Shown here: positions 15,351 through 26,830 of the stretch, in pieces | How the letters are laid out: each line of letters opens with the position of its first letter | How positions within the stretch are numbered: the stretch's first letter is position 1 | NCBI GenBank assembly: GCA_004195635.1 | Contig: PSPT01000028.1 | Location: forward strand, 1 to 35,819 | Source: Methanobacteriota archaeon | GTDB lineage: Archaea > Thermoplasmatota > Poseidoniia > Poseidoniales > Poseidoniaceae | Direction of reading: 5' to 3' | DNA length: 35,819 bases | The notes under the pieces: generated by a model | What the model saw: the letters and a program-made list of their open reading frames with translations, nothing else | The model's database searches: none | What the model was told of the DNA's origin: nothing | Program-made: the position numbers and the translations under genes

Positions 15351-15658
15351 AATGAATGGTTCTGGTGAATGTCAATAACGGCACATAGAGCCTAAGTTTA
15401 GCCGCTAATTAATGACATTTTAACCTTGCCTTTAATCGACAAAAAGTGCACAAATATTGTTGTATTTTCCCATAATAAATACTGGGAATTATTTGGAATT
15501 ATTGACTTGGGAAAAACTATAGCATCCTAGGCCGGATAAATGAAAGTAAAGCCTAGTCGATTTAGGAGTGCAATTTTATTGCAAAATCAAAATTACTTTT
15601 GTGAAAGTGATGTCACCCCCCTCATCAAGGCTTTTGAACTGTGGGGACAGGAGAGGAG
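15351..15658. other. Divergent intergenic region
   Basis: An AT-rich spacer between the leftward ribosomal block and the rightward hef gene. I see no supportable gene or strong repeat. It should hold the hef promoter, but no single TATA box stands out. The end (15645-15658) is purine-rich with GGAGAGGAG just before the hef start. Confidence 0.5.
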
Positions 15659-17593
15659 ATGATGGCCCCTACAGTTGACCACCCGTTTCTCAAGGAAGGG
15701 GTGGCGGAAGCTAGGGCTTACCAATTGGATGCAGTGAGGTCAGCACTTGGCGCATTCACACTTCTTGTTTTACCAACTGGGCTAGGAAAAACTCCAATTG
15801 CTTGGATGACCGCTGCCGAAAGGTTACGAATCTCTGAAGGGTGGGTATTGATGGTAGCCCCTTCAAATCCATTAGTCAACCAGCATTTCAATGATGCAAT
15901 AGAGTGGCTCAATATTGCTGAAGAAGATATCTTAACTTTGACCGGAAGCATTAGTCCGGCAAAGAGAACTTCGCTATATGGTACTGCAAGGGTGATTATT
16001 GCTACTCCACAAATTATTCGAAATGATGTTGCATCGGGAATTCTAAGTTTAAGTCAATGTTCATTGCTAATTGTTGATGAAGCCCACCACGCAACTGGAA
16101 ATCACGCCGCCGCACAAGTAGGCGACCTTTACTGTGAAGCGGCTGCAAACGGACTTGTTTTGGCATGTACTGCAAGCCCAGGGTCAAAAGAAAAGCAGGT
16201 AGAGGAAGTTTGTGACCGACTTGGAATTGAGAGAATAATCACAAGACGAAATGATGATTACCTCGTCAAACCATATTTACAAAAAATGGATATTACCGAG
16301 ATAAGAATTCCCCCCAATGAAAAGATTACCCAAATGGCAGAACCTTTGCAACAATTATTGAATAACTATGTTGAAAGCCTGAGGCGCCAAGGTTTCTTAG
16401 TTACTCAACACGGTGTTTCGATGGGAGCACTTCGGCAAGCACAGGCGCGAATTAGTGACGCAATAGACAATGGACGTTCAACCGCATATACCGCGGCGAG
16501 GCAAAATGCCGATGCACAACGCCTCATGAATTTGTTATATCTCCTCAAAGGACAAAGTGTTGGCTCAGCACTTAGGCATCTCGAAAGATCAGATGAGAAT
16601 GCGGAGGCAGATAGCACCCAAGGGAGATTTTTGGCCCAGCCGCAAATAAGGGCATTAATCGGGCAACTTAGAGTATGTGAAATCACACATGAAAAATTGG
16701 CCAAAGTTTGCAGCCTTGTCAAGAAAGTAATCAATACAGGTGACGATAGTCGGATTATTGTATTCGCATCTTGGCGTGATAGCGTTTCTGAAATTGAATC
16801 AGAATTACAGAAGATCAAGGGCGTTAATGTTGAACAATTTATTGGACAATCAAGCAGAGGCGGACAAAAAGGAATGACGCAAAAGCAGCAAATATCGTGC
16901 CTGCAAAGATTCAGAGAGGGGCATAGTAATGTGTTGGTTGCGACTTCTGTAGGAGAGGAAGGTCTAGATGTTCCTGCTGCCGACCGAGTGATTTTCTATG
17001 AACCTGTTTCCAGTGAAATACGAACCATTCAAAGAAGAGGGAGAACTGCAAGACATCGCCAAGGAGATGTATTTGTTTTAGTTAGCGAAGATACCCGTGA
17101 CGAAGGCGTAAGACATGCCTCGGCTGCGAGGGAAAAAAGAATGCACTATGTCATTAGTAAAGTTAGGCGAAGAAGGAGGGCGCCACGTATCCACCCTTAC
17201 CCTGACCGATTTATTGAATCATTCATTGTAGATACTGCTGGAGAAAAAATGCCAGCAGCCGAATTTTTATTAGCAGAAGAAAAAAGATTGCAGCCCGAAT
17301 TAGGTAGTAAAGGACATACTATTGGTGGCTTACGCACAGATGGTGGCGAAAAACCAGATGTGCCGAGGACAAAAATCATCGGTAAGAGCCCAGCAACTAA
17401 TTCGGCATTAGTGCGCCCAAAACATCAAAATTCAATCTCAGATTACTTGAGTTCTGAACAATTAGATGCGCCGCCAACACCTCCCTCCACTCCATCGCCC
17501 ACACCTACCTCCCTCCACTCCATCGCCCACACCACAATCCAAACCGGCGAAATGGAGCAACCCTGTCTTGAATGCAGCAATAGAAGCGGCTGA
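15659..17593 (+). CDS. hef: Hef helicase part (SF2 DEAH, FANCM/XPF-type), interrupted
   Basis: The helicase half of archaeal Hef, a DNA repair protein that remodels and cuts stalled forks. Seen in the 644-residue product: Q-motif-like EARAYQLDAV, Walker A LPTGLGKT (39-45), DEAH (140-143), ACTASPGS, then the C-terminal RecA lobe with VATSVGEEGLDVPAADRVIF and QRRGRTARHRQGDVFVL. In intact Hef an ERCC4 nuclease and HhH domain follow in the same chain. Here the frame runs into a Pro-rich linker with a 28-bp tandem duplication and stops at 17593; the nuclease continues at 17684. The frame also opens with GTG 15641; I choose ATG 15659 (ATG 15662 is equal) because GGAGAGGAG lies upstream. Confidence 0.88.
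   Translation: MMAPTVDHPFLKEGVAEARAYQLDAVRSALGAFTLLVLPTGLGKTPIAWMTAAERLRISEGWVLMVAPSNPLVNQHFNDAIEWLNIAEEDILTLTGSISPAKRTSLYGTARVIIATPQIIRNDVASGILSLSQCSLLIVDEAHHATGNHAAAQVGDLYCEAAANGLVLACTASPGSKEKQVEEVCDRLGIERIITRRNDDYLVKPYLQKMDITEIRIPPNEKITQMAEPLQQLLNNYVESLRRQGFLVTQHGVSMGALRQAQARISDAIDNGRSTAYTAARQNADAQRLMNLLYLLKGQSVGSALRHLERSDENAEADSTQGRFLAQPQIRALIGQLRVCEITHEKLAKVCSLVKKVINTGDDSRIIVFASWRDSVSEIESELQKIKGVNVEQFIGQSSRGGQKGMTQKQQISCLQRFREGHSNVLVATSVGEEGLDVPAADRVIFYEPVSSEIRTIQRRGRTARHRQGDVFVLVSEDTRDEGVRHASAAREKRMHYVISKVRRRRRAPRIHPYPDRFIESFIVDTAGEKMPAAEFLLAEEKRLQPELGSKGHTIGGLRTDGGEKPDVPRTKIIGKSPATNSALVRPKHQNSISDYLSSEQLDAPPTPPSTPSPTPTSLHSIAHTTIQTGEMEQPCLECSNRSG
17479..17533 (+). repeat. 28-bp tandem duplication in the hef linker
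   Basis: Bases 17479-17505 and 17507-17533 are identical over 27 bases, separated by one T, giving a period of 28. Copy 1 read in the helicase frame and copy 2 read one frame on both spell PPSTPSPTP. This shows that a coding unit was duplicated and, not being a multiple of three, shifted the frame by one. Confidence 0.95.
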
Positions 17594-17683: not shown

Positions 17684-18394
17684 ATGGCGAGTTCAATCCT
17701 AGCAAATCTACGAGCGCTAAAAATTGACGTAGATATTGAAACCTTAGCAGTCGGCGATATTGCAATTGGAGATCTTATCATTATTGAAAGAAAAACCAGC
17801 CGCGATTTAATAGATTCATTATTGGATAAGAGAATATTCAGACAGGCAAGAAGACTGATTGCCTGTGCACCACAGGCCTTGTTGATAGTTGAAGGTGCAG
17901 ATTCAATGTCCAGAGCGGTTCATTCAAATGCAATTGCCGGACTATTAGCCCATCTTTCTGCAGACATTGGACTGACAATTATTCCTACCAAAAACACTCA
18001 AGCAACCGCGCGAGTTGTGGCTATGCTGGCAAAAAAAGAAAAACGACGGATTGACAAACTTGCAAAGAGACTCAATTCTCGACTAGTTAATTCAGAAGAA
18101 GAGAGAATTGAAAGAAGACCAAAATCTGCTTGGACCAAGCACCATGCTAGCGGGAGTCTTGGAGTTGAATCAAATATGACTAAAGGACAAAGTGACACTA
18201 AGGCAGCAAAGGAGAAATTTGCTAGAGGCGTAGAAGTCCTACAAGCATTCCCTTCAATAGGGCGAGTAAGGGCGAGGAAATTGATGCTTGAATTCGGCAG
18301 TCCGGCTAAAGTATTCAGTGCAAGTGAAGATAGATTGGCGAGGAATGGAATCTCACCTCAAAGACTTGCACAAATGCTAGAAATACTAGGATGA
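17684..18394 (+). CDS. hef: Hef nuclease part (ERCC4 domain plus HhH), separated by frameshift
   Basis: The XPF-family nuclease half of Hef, 236 residues from ATG 17684. Seen: GDIAIGDLIIIERKTSRDLI, the GDx(n)ERKxxxD catalytic motif, then KRIFRQARRL and ALLIVEG. The C-terminal tandem helix-hairpin-helix has FPSIGRVRARKLMLEFGS. The true domain begins upstream in the same frame (KSLIVRLDHREM, from about 17651), with a stop at 17615-17617 before that. Starting at ATG 17684 would remove the conserved DHRE aspartate, so an isolated product may be inactive. It converges with the CCG gene across 149 bases without a visible gene. Confidence 0.85.
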   Translation: MASSILANLRALKIDVDIETLAVGDIAIGDLIIIERKTSRDLIDSLLDKRIFRQARRLIACAPQALLIVEGADSMSRAVHSNAIAGLLAHLSADIGLTIIPTKNTQATARVVAMLAKKEKRRIDKLAKRLNSRLVNSEEERIERRPKSAWTKHHASGSLGVESNMTKGQSDTKAAKEKFARGVEVLQAFPSIGRVRARKLMLEFGSPAKVFSASEDRLARNGISPQRLAQMLEILG

Positions 18395-18543: not shown

Positions 18544-19401
18544 TCAGTTTCCAATAACCAATACTCGTGTACGTAATTGTGCGAAACGGTCAACATGGTA
18601 TCCAAGAGCAAATGCAACTAACTCTGGCAGGTGAATAACAGGCATGCTTGTGTCCTTTCCACTCACACGGCCTGCTTGAACTTGGTAAGTATCTAAGTTA
18701 AAATGAGATAACGGGCAAGCACTTGCCATAATTCTGGCTCCGGCTTGCTTGGCTTCGGACAAAACTGCACCAGTTTGACGCATTGCGGTTTTTTCTTGGT
18801 GTAATAATGCAGGGAATCCGACACTCTTTACTCGACCGTCATATTCGACTGGCTCGCCACCGAGGGCACTAATCAACTTCTCAAAATAAGTCGGATTAAA
18901 TGAATCATCATCTCCATTTGCATCTCCTTGAAGCATTGGTGCACCATAATATCCTGCGACAGGGAAATCAATTGGATTTAGAACTTTATCCTCTATTACA
19001 TCAAGACCAATATCCTCTACAAGGACATCCAAAAGATGGCGCATGCGCAAATTACCTTCGAATCGCATGCCGCAAGTCCTTTCAAGGACATCATTTATCT
19101 CGCCACGTAGAACTTCATCATCAAGGAGCATTTTCAGATCTTCATGCATGTTACCTTGACAGGTAGCACAAGGAGTCAAAACATCCAAGCCTTGCGACTC
19201 AGCAATAGCAAAAGTTCGGGCATTCAAAGCCAATTGTAGTTGGTGATTTGCCTGCTTCATTATCCCTGCACCACAACAAGCAGCACCTGGCATCTCAACA
19301 AGTTCAATATTCAAACCTTTAATCACTGCTTGCATTGCATCCTCAATTTCACGAGAGGAACCCTTAGCAACACAACCGGGGAAATATGCGAATTTTACCA
19401 T
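18544..19401 (-). CDS. CCG-domain protein (HdrB / SdhC-E / TfrB C-terminal-like), second motif degenerate
   Basis: 285 residues of the heterodisulfide-reductase subunit B family, whose CCG domains bind non-cubane [4Fe-4S] clusters in cytosolic or membrane-associated redox complexes. The first motif is complete: Cys10 (YFPGC), Cys42-Cys43 (ACCGAG) and Cys78/Cys81 (PCATC). In the second half the expected cysteine positions read GYYGAPM (150-156), GFPALL (196-200) and ACPLSHFNLD (228-237), so all but one ligand are gone. One cluster rather than two is inferred. The gene starts nine bases after the stop of the ferredoxin-flavodoxin-SdhB-like fusion, so the two form an operon and probably a complex, like the SdhB-CCG arrangement of thiol:fumarate reductase TfrB. 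Confidence 0.85.
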   Translation of the reverse strand: MVKFAYFPGCVAKGSSREIEDAMQAVIKGLNIELVEMPGAACCGAGIMKQANHQLQLALNARTFAIAESQGLDVLTPCATCQGNMHEDLKMLLDDEVLRGEINDVLERTCGMRFEGNLRMRHLLDVLVEDIGLDVIEDKVLNPIDFPVAGYYGAPMLQGDANGDDDSFNPTYFEKLISALGGEPVEYDGRVKSVGFPALLHQEKTAMRQTGAVLSEAKQAGARIMASACPLSHFNLDTYQVQAGRVSGKDTSMPVIHLPELVAFALGYHVDRFAQLRTRVLVIGN

Positions 19402-19410
19402 TTTATCACC

Positions 19411-21345
19411 TCAGAACCTCTTGTCAAATTCATTGAAAATTGCAACGACCTGATAATGTGATTGGTCGGGTAGAGAAAACATCGGGGGCATCTTTCCAAT
19501 ACTAGCAGGAGGAAGGAAAAGGGCTTGCTTATCCCTCATTAGTGGGCCACCTGTACGAGTGAATCCAGTTAACATCCGTAGGACTTGACGGCCGTTTGCA
19601 ATCATTCCGATTGGACCGGTTACAAGCGCAGGAACTAATGTTTCATTGACTTCACCGGTCATCTTGATGGTTCGGCTGAACCATTTTACATGCTTGCCAT
19701 GCTTACCGGTGAATTTGTTGCGGCGCAACAAGTCTGCTCGGCATTGATACAGGGCTTTGGCCATTGTTGCGCCATCGGCACCTTGACGAGTAATTGCAGA
19801 AATATCGGTTTCACTCCACAAACCACCCTTCGCTTCAAGACGATTCATCGAATCTTCAACTGCTGCCGCGGAAGTACGTGGGTCAGAAGCGCGACGCCAT
19901 AGACTCAAGCAGACTGCAGGGCCGAGGTAATTAGGGGAATAAGGTAGGGCATCGGAGTATGCTTGAGCGGTTTCAAGACTTGAAATATTGGACATTTGGT
20001 ATATATTCAATGCAGCTGTTGGCTCCATTGTACCAATTGCAATACCATTGTCTGCATATTCGCCCATTCGGTCGCGAGTGCGAGCCCAAACTTTCGCGCT
20101 AGAACGACGATTGTCATAGGTATCAGTAGCGACGATTAAATCACGCAGAACTTCATGACCAGGTAGTGGTTCTACATTGAGATAGAAACTGCCTTGCACA
20201 CCGCCAACCAAATCGAGAACACGACACTCATCGGCACGAACTACCCTTCCATTTACTAGAAGACCGGAAAGTTTCCCAGAACTACGGAAAGAAATACTAC
20301 CATCTTGGGATTCACGAATTGAATTTAATACTTCTGAAATTGATAAATGCCCAGGTACGGTGCAATCGTATGAATCCCAACCTCGGCTGGCTTCGGCAGG
20401 GTCATAGCGGAAAATCTTGACGGTGAGGTCAATATCTGCTTGCACAATTCCAGCAGCAGAAGCAACTGCACCTGCTTTCTTAGTAGGTGAAATAAGTTCT
20501 GCAAAGGTAGCGATGAAATCTTCATGCATATTGCCACTATCATCAATACATGCTAAGTTTGCAAGAGCGGCAGTTGACCAAGTCTTCCAAACTTGGTCAA
20601 AATCAACATCGCAATCAGCGCGGTCAACTACTCTCCTTGCGCCGAGTTCACTAAGACGGGTATCCCATTGCTTTCCGGCTTCACAGAACAAATCGTAAGA
20701 CAAGTCGCCAAGGGCACAAACTGAGAAACTAACACCTGACAAATCTGCACTACTTGCACTTGCTGCTTGCCAAAGGTCTTCGGCATTATCTGGTTGATCG
20801 CCTTCTCCCCAAGTTGAACAGATGATGAGCACGCGGCTTGCCGCAGAAATATCGTCCATGCTTGCACTTGCCATATCCTTCAAAGTTGCATTGAGGCCAG
20901 CATTTGCTGCAAGTTTCACAGTATTAACTCCTAAATCCTCTGAATTACCCGATTGAGAACCGAATAGAACCAGTAGGCCACGATCGCCTTCGGTCAATTC
21001 AGAAGGCAATTCCACTGCTTCTTCCACAGCAGGTGCGGCTTCGACTACTGGAGCTTCGGAAACTTCATCTCCACCAGCGAGTTCAGCACCAACTTTAACG
21101 TATTTGATTACATCAACCGGACAACCATCAACGGCATCGAGGATATCGTCATACATTGAAGAACCAATCTCATCCTTCAATGCAGATTTTGTGGATTCGT
21201 TGCTATCAAAGCCGCCATCAACCCTTGCAGCGGCAACAATAAAGCTTGAATCATCTTGAACTTCGAAGACATCTGGGGCGATTTCTTGACACGCATCACA
21301 AGTGATACATCCATCTTCAACCCAAACCATTGCTATTTGTGACAT
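19411..21345 (-). CDS. Ferredoxin-flavodoxin-SdhB-like fusion protein
   Basis: 644 residues from ATG 21345 (GGTGAGG upstream; a longer frame to 21420 adds 25 residues without family match). Domain 1, about 1-85: ferredoxin with Cys13, Cys16, Cys19 (CITCDAC) and Cys75 (DGCPVD). Domain 2, about 122-250: FMN flavodoxin of the sulfite/cytochrome P450 reductase type, with LFGSQSGNSEDLG, CSTWGEGDQPDNAEDLW and ALGDLSYDLFCEAGKQWDTR. Domain 3, about 306-545: an SdhB/fumarate reductase iron-sulfur subunit fold, with KIFRYDPAE, SISFRSSGKLSG (SdhB has SLSFRRSCREGVCGS), PLPGHEVLRDLIV and NYLGPAVCLSLWRRASDPR. Nearly all SdhB cluster ligands are absent: the CxxCxxC region reads YQMSNISSLETAQ. About 100 residues of unrecognised tail follow. 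Likely an electron-transfer scaffold; donor and acceptor are unknown. Confidence 0.85.
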   Translation of the reverse strand: MSQIAMVWVEDGCITCDACQEIAPDVFEVQDDSSFIVAAARVDGGFDSNESTKSALKDEIGSSMYDDILDAVDGCPVDVIKYVKVGAELAGGDEVSEAPVVEAAPAVEEAVELPSELTEGDRGLLVLFGSQSGNSEDLGVNTVKLAANAGLNATLKDMASASMDDISAASRVLIICSTWGEGDQPDNAEDLWQAASASSADLSGVSFSVCALGDLSYDLFCEAGKQWDTRLSELGARRVVDRADCDVDFDQVWKTWSTAALANLACIDDSGNMHEDFIATFAELISPTKKAGAVASAAGIVQADIDLTVKIFRYDPAEASRGWDSYDCTVPGHLSISEVLNSIRESQDGSISFRSSGKLSGLLVNGRVVRADECRVLDLVGGVQGSFYLNVEPLPGHEVLRDLIVATDTYDNRRSSAKVWARTRDRMGEYADNGIAIGTMEPTAALNIYQMSNISSLETAQAYSDALPYSPNYLGPAVCLSLWRRASDPRTSAAAVEDSMNRLEAKGGLWSETDISAITRQGADGATMAKALYQCRADLLRRNKFTGKHGKHVKWFSRTIKMTGEVNETLVPALVTGPIGMIANGRQVLRMLTGFTRTGGPLMRDKQALFLPPASIGKMPPMFSLPDQSHYQVVAIFNEFDKRF

Positions 21346-23398: not shown

Positions 23399-26300
23399 TT
23401 ACAATTCTTGCTGACTCAACCATTGCTCGCCATAATGTTCCCACTGATCCATTGACCAGCCAGGTGGTAATCCTTCAGCGGGCACAGGCGGTGGACCGGC
23501 TGGAGCGGAGGGCGTAGGTTCGGGAGCCACAACAGGAGGTTCTGAAATAACACTACCATCAATATTCGGAGTGATATCAGTGGCGACCTGTGTTTCAGTC
23601 GAAGGGAAAGACGGAACATCCTTCACGAGAGATGCTCCAAGCATTGAGGTATCTGGACCAAGAGGCATTGGGCTGCCTCCGATACTTGAGAAGTCTGAAG
23701 TCATGTCGGGTGCGGCTTGAACCTCCCCATACATGGAAGCGCTTGCACTTTCATATCCATCCATATCTTCCTCCTCAAATTCTGGTTTTAAGACTCTGAT
23801 TAAGGTGACCAATAAGGCAATGATAACCAATGAACCGAAGCCGATTGTAAGAATATTAATCACAACACTTGATGAACCTCCTTCATCATCAACTTCTGAA
23901 CCACCAGTTGGAGACATCCGTTGCAAGGTAATTTCCATTGTTGAAGATTGAGCATCTTCAACTGTATTTGATTTAGCCCAAAGAATGAACGAAACGGTCA
24001 CTTCTTCCGAATCCAAGTTAATGAGAGTTCCTTCACTTACTTCAACGGTAACATGGATTATTCTTTCATCACCAGGTGCACTTGTTTCAAGAACAACAGT
24101 TCGGTCTTGCTGATTTATTCGAACTGTCATGTAATTAGAAGATTCGCCGGCGGTGTAAGAAATATCCACGCTTTGAACTCCAGTGTATTGATTTCTCAAC
24201 ACGAAAAGTAACTCCAATTCTTCAGTTGGCTCAGAGATTGTAACCGGAGATGGCTCAATCAAACGAAGCCAGTTTTGGCTACCAACACTAAAAATTGCAG
24301 TTCCAGAGCCGCTTTGAGTCGGGTCATTTACACTTGTCGAAACTACATCCATAGAGATTTGACCAGAAATGTCACTATCAAAAGCAAACTTAACAGTCAC
24401 GTTTGTTGAAGCTCCAGGGGCAATAGCAATAGTCGTATTATCATTCAAACTGTCAATGAACGCACTCATTCCATCGGGGGTCACCAATGAAAGCTCAAAA
24501 CTATCATCCTCATTACCGTCATTTCGTATTTCAAACTGAATTGATTTCTCGCGGTCACCGGGAATGTAGGACTCCTCGGGGTCTTCATCACTTACCCAAG
24601 GGGCTGATGTAGGCAAAACCTCAACAGAAATTATTGCCGAATCATAAACACTTGGATCATCAATGGAGGCAACATTAACTCTTGCACTGTATAATCTAGG
24701 AGGCAACATTAGAGGCATAGGTAAATTAAGAGTTATAGAAGTTGAACCTTCCCAAGCATCTAAAACAGTTGTTTCGGAAGTTGACAATACACCCCTTAAA
24801 ATCCAATCTGACTGGACTAATTCAACAGAAAATTGCTCATCATCATTGCCCAAATTGAAGATGTCAATATTGATGCTTTGTGCAACACCATTTGCACTTG
24901 CAGTAACTGACAAAGTATCGGCAACAACATTAACGAGGCGCAATTCCGGCACATTGATATTACGTATCAAAACATCATTTCCGTGTACTGTCCCTACACA
25001 TGAGGTGCAGGATGCACGAATTGAGACAGAGGTAAGACCAGGTGCGGCATCAGCGGCAGCTGTAATATTAACAACGAAATCAAAAGACTCGCCCTTTGAA
25101 AGAACAATTGGCAAAAAGGATGCACCAGTTTCATTTTTGAAAGCGGTAGCCCACCCTGCAGAAGGGAAACTCGGAAGTAAATTATACTCGGCATCTAAGT
25201 TCCCTGAATTTTGTAAGCGCATAATAATTTCACCAGATTCACTTGGCAATAAATCAAGTGCCAATAATGGTGAAAAGGAAGATAGCATGACTCCATATTG
25301 CTCTGACACTACAACAGAGGAAGATATACTACCTTTGACATCGGCATTTTGAGGAGTGCCTTCCTCAAACCAAACATTCCATGTTACTGATTGAACGTCT
25401 GCACCAGGCGGGATGCTGAGATTAATCCACATTTCAGTGGTCTCACCGGCGGGGATTGCTGGAAGAAGAACTGCATTTCCATGCTGATTTTGGTTCGCAG
25501 AATCAATTCGAAGCATTGGATTCATAGGATCCATCCAAGATTCATTTGAAACATTGGTATTAACTTCAAAAGTTTGTGATTTGTATCCATTATTGGTAAC
25601 CATACAATGTAAACTGATAGTTTCGGCTGGAACTGCAGTATAACCTGCTTCGGGATTATTACAATTTGTAGTCAATGTGTATTCGTCAACTTTTTCAACG
25701 GCGAAAATAATCCAATCATCTATGTGTAATCCTTCATCAGCAAACGCAGAATCACTTGAGAACAAGAGACCGTATGACCATGTCTGCCCTCCCAATTCAA
25801 CAGAAGATGGCCTCCAAGTAATGTTGGACCATTGGTCATTGCCTTGATTGGGTGAATAATCGGTTAGATTTTTGACAAGACTAGAACCGCCGGTACGCCA
25901 TAATTCGATAGCCACTTCATCACCAATGGACATGGTACCCCATGTTGAAAGGTGGAAGTCGAGTGAAACATATTCAACAGTATACAATTGTCTTTTACAA
26001 TAATAATAACTGTAAACGAGAGGAGCGCCTGGCTCTTGAACATCTTGGTTACAGCCACCACTTTGAGGTGCAGTAGCAGGCCAATATCCACGAACTAAGC
26101 GATCTGCATTTCGTCCACTGGCATATTGACTTCCCGGGTCGGAGTGACGCCAATGCTTTGAACCAACAACACCACCATTGTCCTCTTGCCATGCACCTAC
26201 TGCTTCTGCATCTCCCCCGCCTTGGTATCCGAGAGGGAGGAAGGTAAGACGGTCAGCAGACAGTTCAGTTCCATCCATCACGTCTGAATCAAAAGCAACT

Positions 26301-26830
26301 GGGATTCGAGATTCAATGACGTCATCATCGTTTTTAGTATCAGCAAAATAGTTGATTGATGCGCGGATAATCCAGCCGCCTTCTAGTGAATCATTGATCA
26401 ATTCCGAATGTGCTGCCGAAGGAGTCCACAGATATTGATTTGAATCCTGTTGTCCACCATACAAATCAGTTGCAGTCCAATTGACCGACCAATCAACATA
26501 GCCAATTGGATGAACCGCTTCAACCATCACCAATGCAGATTGCGGAGTTGCGGAGGTACCTGCGCGTTGTACTGTAATAGTTAGAGGCAATGTCGTTCCA
26601 GCGAAAATAAAAGGCACAGGAGTTCCATCTGGATTGTACCAAGTATCGGTATGAACAGAAGCATTACCTAGTTCAACAGAAACGATGTAAAAATTGTCAT
26701 TAGTACCGCCTCGAGCAGAAGCCGCATCGGCGAGTGGTGCAGTAAAAAGCACGCCAGCGGCTTGGCCGATAAGGATTGCCAAGAGGAGGAAGGATACTGC
26801 AGTTCGCGAGCGCATATCATTGCCCAGCAT
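23399..26830 (-). CDS. Large secreted, membrane-anchored beta-sandwich protein (NEW3/CARDB-type)
   Basis: 1143 residues. A signal peptide lies at the start (MRSRTAVSFLLLAILIGQAA after an alternative ATG at 26815). The bulk is a series of extracellular beta-sandwich repeats with phrases such as RLQNSGNLDAEYNL, FNLGNDDEQFSVELVQSDW and IRNDGNEDDSFELSL, typical of NEW3/CARDB-like adhesion domains. A segment around 230-380 resembles a jelly-roll. One transmembrane helix near the C-terminus (INILTIGFGSLVIIALLVTL) leaves an acidic, Pro-rich cytoplasmic tail ending in GLPPGWSMDQWEHYGEQWL, a WW-like short motif. Function is probably cell-surface binding. Exact ligand unknown. The 169 bases upstream hold a TTTAATTTTA element near 26915-26928 and no gene. 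Confidence 0.75.
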   Translation of the reverse strand: MLGNDMRSRTAVSFLLLAILIGQAAGVLFTAPLADAASARGGTNDNFYIVSVELGNASVHTDTWYNPDGTPVPFIFAGTTLPLTITVQRAGTSATPQSALVMVEAVHPIGYVDWSVNWTATDLYGGQQDSNQYLWTPSAAHSELINDSLEGGWIIRASINYFADTKNDDDVIESRIPVAFDSDVMDGTELSADRLTFLPLGYQGGGDAEAVGAWQEDNGGVVGSKHWRHSDPGSQYASGRNADRLVRGYWPATAPQSGGCNQDVQEPGAPLVYSYYYCKRQLYTVEYVSLDFHLSTWGTMSIGDEVAIELWRTGGSSLVKNLTDYSPNQGNDQWSNITWRPSSVELGGQTWSYGLLFSSDSAFADEGLHIDDWIIFAVEKVDEYTLTTNCNNPEAGYTAVPAETISLHCMVTNNGYKSQTFEVNTNVSNESWMDPMNPMLRIDSANQNQHGNAVLLPAIPAGETTEMWINLSIPPGADVQSVTWNVWFEEGTPQNADVKGSISSSVVVSEQYGVMLSSFSPLLALDLLPSESGEIIMRLQNSGNLDAEYNLLPSFPSAGWATAFKNETGASFLPIVLSKGESFDFVVNITAAADAAPGLTSVSIRASCTSCVGTVHGNDVLIRNINVPELRLVNVVADTLSVTASANGVAQSINIDIFNLGNDDEQFSVELVQSDWILRGVLSTSETTVLDAWEGSTSITLNLPMPLMLPPRLYSARVNVASIDDPSVYDSAIISVEVLPTSAPWVSDEDPEESYIPGDREKSIQFEIRNDGNEDDSFELSLVTPDGMSAFIDSLNDNTTIAIAPGASTNVTVKFAFDSDISGQISMDVVSTSVNDPTQSGSGTAIFSVGSQNWLRLIEPSPVTISEPTEELELLFVLRNQYTGVQSVDISYTAGESSNYMTVRINQQDRTVVLETSAPGDERIIHVTVEVSEGTLINLDSEEVTVSFILWAKSNTVEDAQSSTMEITLQRMSPTGGSEVDDEGGSSSVVINILTIGFGSLVIIALLVTLIRVLKPEFEEEDMDGYESASASMYGEVQAAPDMTSDFSSIGGSPMPLGPDTSMLGASLVKDVPSFPSTETQVATDITPNIDGSVISEPPVVAPEPTPSAPAGPPPVPAEGLPPGWSMDQWEHYGEQWLSQQEL

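Follow-up and report, generated by a model that had tools for sequence, protein, structure and literature searches.

A ferredoxin- and flavodoxin-bearing SdhB-SdhE-like protein pair that lacks the SdhB cluster ligands is conserved across the Poseidoniales

What can an SdhB-like protein do once all of its cluster ligands are gone, and what are a ferredoxin and a flavodoxin doing at its N-terminus? This question is raised by a two-gene locus on contig PSPT01000028.1 of the Poseidoniaceae assembly GCA_004195635.1 (35,819 nucleotides, analyzed in full and herein referred to as the window). One gene encodes a fusion (P0001) of ferredoxin (Fd), flavodoxin (Fld), and an SdhB-like domain, SdhB'; the other encodes an SdhE/HdrB-like protein (P0002), SdhE'. 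Poseidoniales rank among the archaea most abundant in surface ocean waters, and to our knowledge the order has no cultured member. On balance, we consider the pair to be an exapted SdhB-SdhE heterodimer, now probably used as a docking scaffold that presents electron carriers to an acceptor.

Both redox modules of P0001 are of the types given in an earlier note on this DNA, which had been made from the sequence alone. Residues 9-81 match the Pfam family Fer4_13 (E 1.5e-10), and the four ligands of the [4Fe-4S] cluster, Cys13/16/19/75, are invariant in 21 relatives that carry this module. Residues 126-248 match Flavodoxin_1 (E 8.7e-27) with CysJ as the best model (cysJ, 5.5e-34), a flavodoxin of the P450-reductase type. 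Its flavin mononucleotide (FMN) site motifs, GSQ.GN and STWGEG, are conserved, and FMN binding is predicted from the sequence. In a structural model of tethered P0001 and P0002, this part was matched by Foldseek to the FMN domains of cytochrome P450 reductase and CysJ.

The third domain was confirmed as an SdhB scaffold lacking clusters. The family Fer2_3 matches P0001 at residues 308-409 (E 1.6e-9), and the SdhB models TIGR00384 (6e-15) and PRK12576 (9e-18) cover residues 306-569. When a profile of this domain built from 43 relatives was compared with the PDB, all listed matches but one were SdhB or FrdB (best E 1.2e-16), the last SdhB-type match among those listed being weak. For the AlphaFold model of the domain, obtained from an alignment of the order's own sequences without true SdhB, the 32 best Foldseek matches were all SdhB/FrdB, with template modelling scores (TM) of up to 0.84 on the target. 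The 12 cluster-ligand columns were read from an alignment of 47 homologues to true SdhB of the same phylum; in this read-through alignment (A4), the single TGA between the two genes, which are in frame in 25 of the loci read, was read as Trp. Cysteine is conserved in none of the 12 columns (0-2 stray cysteines per column, two in total in the [2Fe-2S] columns), and several former ligand positions are uniformly substituted (Ser in 47/47, Glu in 47/47). SdhB' has the fold of SdhB/FrdB and lacks the cysteines for the [2Fe-2S], [4Fe-4S], and [3Fe-4S] clusters. The earlier note had staked its reading of this domain on the SdhB fold and on the absence of relatives that keep the SdhB cysteines; the fold is predicted by AlphaFold and Foldseek, and no such relative was found in the order.

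P0002 has the HdrB fold (Foldseek TM 0.85-0.88) and only part of the HdrB ligands. It matches the CCG family (1.4e-16) and, over its whole length, the HdrB model TIGR03288 (4.8e-49) and SdhE of 8-methylmenaquinol:fumarate reductase (8e-46). The N-terminal CCG motif is complete in the window (C10, C42, C43, C78, C81); of the C-terminal motif, one of five cysteines is left (C229), and CCG is changed to SVG. The description of the partner as a one-motif CCG protein holds for the window and fails as a family trait. The C-terminal motif is lost in all 47 homologues, Cys229 itself being kept in 47/47, and all five N-terminal cysteines are present in 11/47 and incomplete in the other 36, most genera included. 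Since the N-terminal motif is complete in so few homologues, its presence in the window's branch and in a few others is a remnant of the ancestral state. No member of the family has the two complete CCG motifs of HdrB and SdhE. HdrB needs two noncubane clusters, and its bridging cysteines, Cys81 and Cys234, are displaced by substrate (PMC13083937); the counterpart of Cys234 is absent from all SdhE' homologues and that of Cys81 is lost in most. Because Cys78 (46/47, absent in L010) and Cys229 are the sole cysteines persisting order-wide, two-cluster HdrB chemistry is ruled out for P0002, the ligands being absent.

The pair is an order-wide feature of these marine euryarchaea. Homologues of P0001 were found in 58 of 59 relatives by whole-protein search (in G029 by flavodoxin matches only), and SdhB' was found in 81 of 82 sampled Poseidoniales genomes, with SdhE' likewise order-wide. 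SdhB' was absent from the six sampled genomes of a sister family of the same class (f3), and the search of the rest of the phylum gave weak matches to true SdhB only. No internal stops were found in the P0001 homologues. The gene order, consisting of a large secreted-type protein, thermosome, the pair, and a convergent helicase, is identical in every neighbourhood read that reaches far enough. In a comparison of the two nearest genomes, the ratio of nonsynonymous to synonymous substitution rates (dN/dS) is 0.042 for SdhB' and 0.077 for SdhE', compared with 0.21 for the ferredoxin and 0.23 for the flavodoxin; the cluster-free SdhB' and SdhE' are the most constrained parts of the system. A decaying or chimeric sdhB/sdhE copy, or an assembly artefact, would fit the absence of all SdhB cluster ligands, but is refuted by the distribution, the intact frames, the constant synteny, and dN/dS values of 0.04-0.08 precisely on the cluster-free parts; we give it practically no credence. 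One further SdhE', 78% identical to P0002, lies on a contig labelled Deltaproteobacteria (JAOMAZ010000036.1, L151), which is probably a misassigned Poseidoniales contig.

The closest relatives of the pair are SdhB and SdhE of Thermoplasmatota sdhABE operons, and the pair may descend from them. In family f6 of the same phylum, the operon sdhA-sdhB-sdhE retains every cluster cysteine. P0002 is 43% identical to this SdhE over 268 residues, compared with 27-37% for other HdrB/SdhE-type proteins of the phylum. P0001 is 22% identical to f6 SdhB in an alignment that begins where domain 3 begins and continues into the C-terminal extension, the first part of which is homologous to the archaeal SdhB extension. 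Poseidoniales SdhE' form one clade (support 100/100) in an unrooted tree. The TfrB/HdrD logic proposed in the earlier note needs correcting, the nearest relatives being SdhB/SdhE and not HdrD. The source genome keeps a separate succinate dehydrogenase, with SdhA on contig C29 beside a canonical SdhB with all cysteines, which makes SdhB' a paralogue that has taken on a new role. This canonical sdhB (L037, G000:C29) is split by a frameshift beside an intact sdhA, possibly owing to an assembly error.

The N-terminal redox modules are exchanged between genomes. Among the 59 relatives, the N-terminal region of P0001 is Fd-Fld in 38, Fld-Fld in 11, Fld alone in five, and Fd alone in two (one of these at a contig end); in the remaining three, the module region is absent or cut. 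Three further Fld-only genomes were found outside this set, eight in total.

This exchange co-varies with a separate reductase. A CysJ-type protein of about 430 residues that would bind flavin adenine dinucleotide (FAD) and NADP(H), mostly without an FMN domain, was found in 59/59 relatives and in 80 of 82 sampled Poseidoniales genomes; in the window's genome, it is encoded at L092:6938-8227 (match to Escherichia coli CysJ, E 6e-82). The FMN and FAD/NADPH parts that CysJ holds in one chain are at two loci in most genomes, and a reductase-fused FMN domain, where present, is additional to the flavodoxin of P0001. A flavodoxin-fused reductase was found in 0/40 genomes with an Fd-bearing P0001, 2/11 with Fld-Fld, and 5/5 with Fld only (one-sided Fisher test ~5e-5, by hand, the genomes not being independent; in G036 the fusion was inferred from two contig ends). 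All three later-found Fld-only genomes also have the reductase-fused flavodoxin. In addition, flavodoxins at the N-terminus of P0001 share clades with those fused to the reductase, with support 100/100 in family f1 and 99/97 in family f2, where the clade also includes two standalone flavodoxins and two central ones. Read most simply, these data describe a single electron route, leading from NADPH through the FAD reductase and ferredoxin or flavodoxin to FMN, to either end of which the same carrier can be joined. The CysI hemoprotein of sulfite reductase was rejected as a partner, with no NIR_SIR match in 29 Poseidoniales genomes. In the G036 reductase (G036:C41, L115), an N-terminal stretch resembles a winged-helix domain by eye; it separates the FAD part from the inferred flavodoxin.

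The coordinates of the locus are given in Table 1. A stop codon overlapping a ribosome-binding-like motif (TGAGGTGA-type junction), or an overlap with the start codon (TGATG), recurs across the order and suggests that the two genes are translationally coupled. In G037 (L054), both genes form a single open frame of 997 aa with the arrangement Fld-Fld-SdhB'-SdhE', and this natural fusion supports a physical, presumably soluble, complex of P0001 and P0002.

Table 1. Features of the two-gene locus (positions in the window)
Feature	Position	Strand	Details
P0001, ferredoxin-flavodoxin-SdhB' fusion	19411..21345	minus	644 aa plus stop
[4Fe-4S] ferredoxin module (single), P0001 residues 1-90	21076..21345	minus	Fer4_13; Cys13/16/19/75
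FMN flavodoxin module (central), CysJ/P450-reductase type, residues 118-275	20521..20994	minus	Flavodoxin_1, cysJ, Foldseek
SdhB' N-terminal half, [2Fe-2S] ferredoxin fold minus four cysteines, residues 303-400	20146..20439	minus	Fer2_3
SdhB' C-terminal helical half minus eight cluster cysteines, residues 401-545	19711..20145	minus	dhsB/PRK12576; AlphaFold/Foldseek
C-terminal extension of P0001, conserved (GFTRTGG, PPA..GK.P, ..VVAIFNE.D.RF)	19414..19710	minus	low model confidence
Gene junction TGAGGTGATAAA	19402..19413	minus	stop codon overlapping GAGGTGA ribosome-binding-like motif
P0002, SdhE'/HdrB-like protein	18544..19401	minus	285 aa; CCG, HdrB and SdhE model matches

The following history and mechanism are proposed. 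In the Poseidoniales ancestor, an sdhB-sdhE pair like that of the sdhABE operons in related Thermoplasmatota would have parted from SdhA and shed every SdhB cluster site, and the ancestral SdhB' would have gained N-terminal redox modules. NADPH would reduce the separate CysJ-type FAD reductase; from there, electrons would pass one at a time to the ferredoxin or flavodoxin module and then to the central flavodoxin's FMN. Holding these carriers against an acceptor enzyme would be the task of the cluster-free SdhB'-SdhE' body. We infer both the scaffold role and the direction in which electrons flow; the body is the sole part never exchanged, and a conserved cluster wire is absent. The model of the window's pair matches HdrB, SdhB/FrdB, and P450-reductase FMN domains in Foldseek. 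Several observations weigh against the docking scaffold. The model of the pair is modest (predicted local distance difference test 74, predicted TM score 0.58) and contains an artificial 4-residue linker. The pair has no constant functional neighbours beyond housekeeping genes, so that any acceptor named is a guess. G044 and G015 lack the central flavodoxin, and no single redox module is therefore indispensable. The reductase is also present in five of the six sampled f3 genomes, which lack the pair, so the route predates the pair and is not restricted to it, and the reductase has other partners. Finally, the unrooted SdhE tree is no proof of descent from SdhE as opposed to another HdrB-like protein, and therefore SdhE descent rests on similarity and gene order.

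In the earlier note, the SdhB cluster chain was proposed to have been replaced by ferredoxin and FMN; on this reading, electrons would pass from ferredoxin to FMN and leave through a noncubane or linear cluster of the CCG partner. Such an outlet is conceivable in the window's branch, where the complete N-terminal motif (11/47) could hold one CCG-type cluster. Nevertheless, we consider it improbable for the family: the motif is incomplete in 36/47 homologues while the remaining complex persists, the loss of the C-terminal motif in all of them makes the two-cluster HdrB mechanism impossible, and ferredoxin or flavodoxin is missing in some genomes. The modules lie upstream of the scaffold, are interchangeable, and either can be missing; their exchange tracks the separate NADPH/FAD reductase, and they look like an input side rather than a replacement wire. 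The main rival, somewhat less improbable and still unlikely in our judgement, is that SdhE' is itself the catalytic end, with Cys78 and Cys229 acting as a redox pair or metal site reduced directly by the flavodoxin FMN; the pair would then be a flavodoxin-dependent disulfide or thiol reductase derived from a heterodisulfide-reductase-like fold. These two cysteines are retained in 46/47 and 47/47 homologues while the other eight ligands are gone in most or all; each is the first cysteine of a former CxxC, and they occupy pseudo-symmetric positions in the HdrB fold. The polar residues near the SdhE' cysteines (H233, D237, Y239, Q240, E18, R62, and H122) are invariant or nearly so, and several are shared with f6 SdhE. 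However, one homologue (L010) lacks Cys78, and the bridging cysteines of HdrB are not these two but Cys81 and Cys234 (PMC13083937), lost in most and in all homologues, respectively.

The pair could also feed electrons into the order's complex I, which is apparently without an NADH module. Enzymes of the complex I type with 11 subunits take electrons from ferredoxin elsewhere. A NuoD-type subunit was found in 55/59 genomes and NuoF (PF01512) in only 10/59, the one NuoF match examined (G001) adjoining a formate dehydrogenase alpha-subunit gene, and complex I, like the pair, is near-universal. On the other side, gene linkage to the pair is absent, and G037 and G050 carry the pair and have no NuoD match, both genomes being incomplete; we regard this possibility as very improbable. 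On the same counts, a NuoF-type donor to complex I was rejected. Independently of the pair, Poseidoniales complex I seems to be without an NADH module; complex I of this group is nevertheless called canonical in a 2019 paper (PMC6336850).

The pair consists of parts of known kinds and fails the defining cluster tests of SdhB, HdrB, SdhE, and TfrB. With sdhABE-type succinate/fumarate reductases (8-methylmenaquinol:fumarate reductase, archaeal SdhABE) it shares the folds, the sdhB-sdhE order, and the SdhB C-terminal extension. In contrast to them, it is without SdhA, as the earlier note had observed (no SdhA-type flavoprotein was found beside the pair in 32 neighbourhoods), has lost all 12 SdhB and at least four SdhE ligands, and has added Fd/Fld modules. 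TfrB, HdrD, and HdrBC likewise have SdhB-like (TfrB) or HdrB-like domains adjacent, with P0002 sharing the HdrB fold, but the pair lacks the second CCG motif in all homologues and HdrA/HdrC-type clusters; compared with TfrB of the coenzyme M/coenzyme B fumarate reductase, SdhB' is cluster-free and has no SdhA/TfrA-type neighbour. The two halves of CysJ or cytochrome P450 reductase have their counterparts in the flavodoxin of P0001 and in the separate FAD/NADPH protein. Here, however, the halves are on different genes, CysI was undetected, and the flavodoxin is fused to an SdhB scaffold. The CCG electron-transfer proteins EtfD, LdhH, and GlpC share CCG domains and, unlike the pair, retain Fer4 and CCG clusters; two large Fer4-CCG proteins with motifs present were found in the same genome. 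An uncharacterised Helicobacter pylori protein (PDB 3kwl, 514 residues) covers SdhB' and SdhE' in a single chain, giving one Foldseek alignment with the tethered model (638 columns, TM 0.68 on target; SdhB' alone, E 3.4e-5). It is bacterial and has no sequence match to the profiles of the pair; the structural match suggests that an SdhB'/SdhE'-like body arose or persisted elsewhere. A search of a viral structure library gave flavodoxin-type matches only.

No description of the Fd/Fld-SdhB' pair was found in a full-text literature search, and nothing on this fusion was found in the searched passages of the Marine Group II metabolism paper (PMC6336850) and of a survey of archaeal fusions (PMC11237513). 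There is a fair chance that this repurposed complex II remnant, with its proposed flavodoxin/ferredoxin electron delivery, belongs to a separate kind of system. More tentatively, the pair may be a modular electron-delivery platform on a cluster-less enzyme body, in which ferredoxin, flavodoxin, and NADPH reductase are freely swapped across the order to serve one essential acceptor, possibly as an adaptation to the iron-poor surface ocean. If the docking scaffold is the true role, an old electron wire seems to have been turned into a scaffold within an NADPH-fed electron-delivery system. That a pair built from a complex II remnant is near-universal suggests that part of the core redox metabolism of Poseidoniales has gone unrecognised. 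The pair also shows with unusual clarity how Fe-S proteins can shed their metal sites stepwise, with the body strongly selected and intermediates extant, and the natural Fd/Fld swaps are ready constructs for testing how carriers and partners are matched.

Some neighbouring genes of the locus were also noted. The secreted or membrane-anchored protein encoded at 23399-26830 in the window has 1143 aa and no Pfam match, and lies upstream of the thermosome in every neighbourhood read that reaches this position. A Hef-type helicase (15641-17593) and an ERCC4 nuclease (17684-18394) are encoded separately in this genus and in one neighbour; elsewhere in the order, the site holds one long frame of ~860-940 aa, or a helicase-sized frame only.

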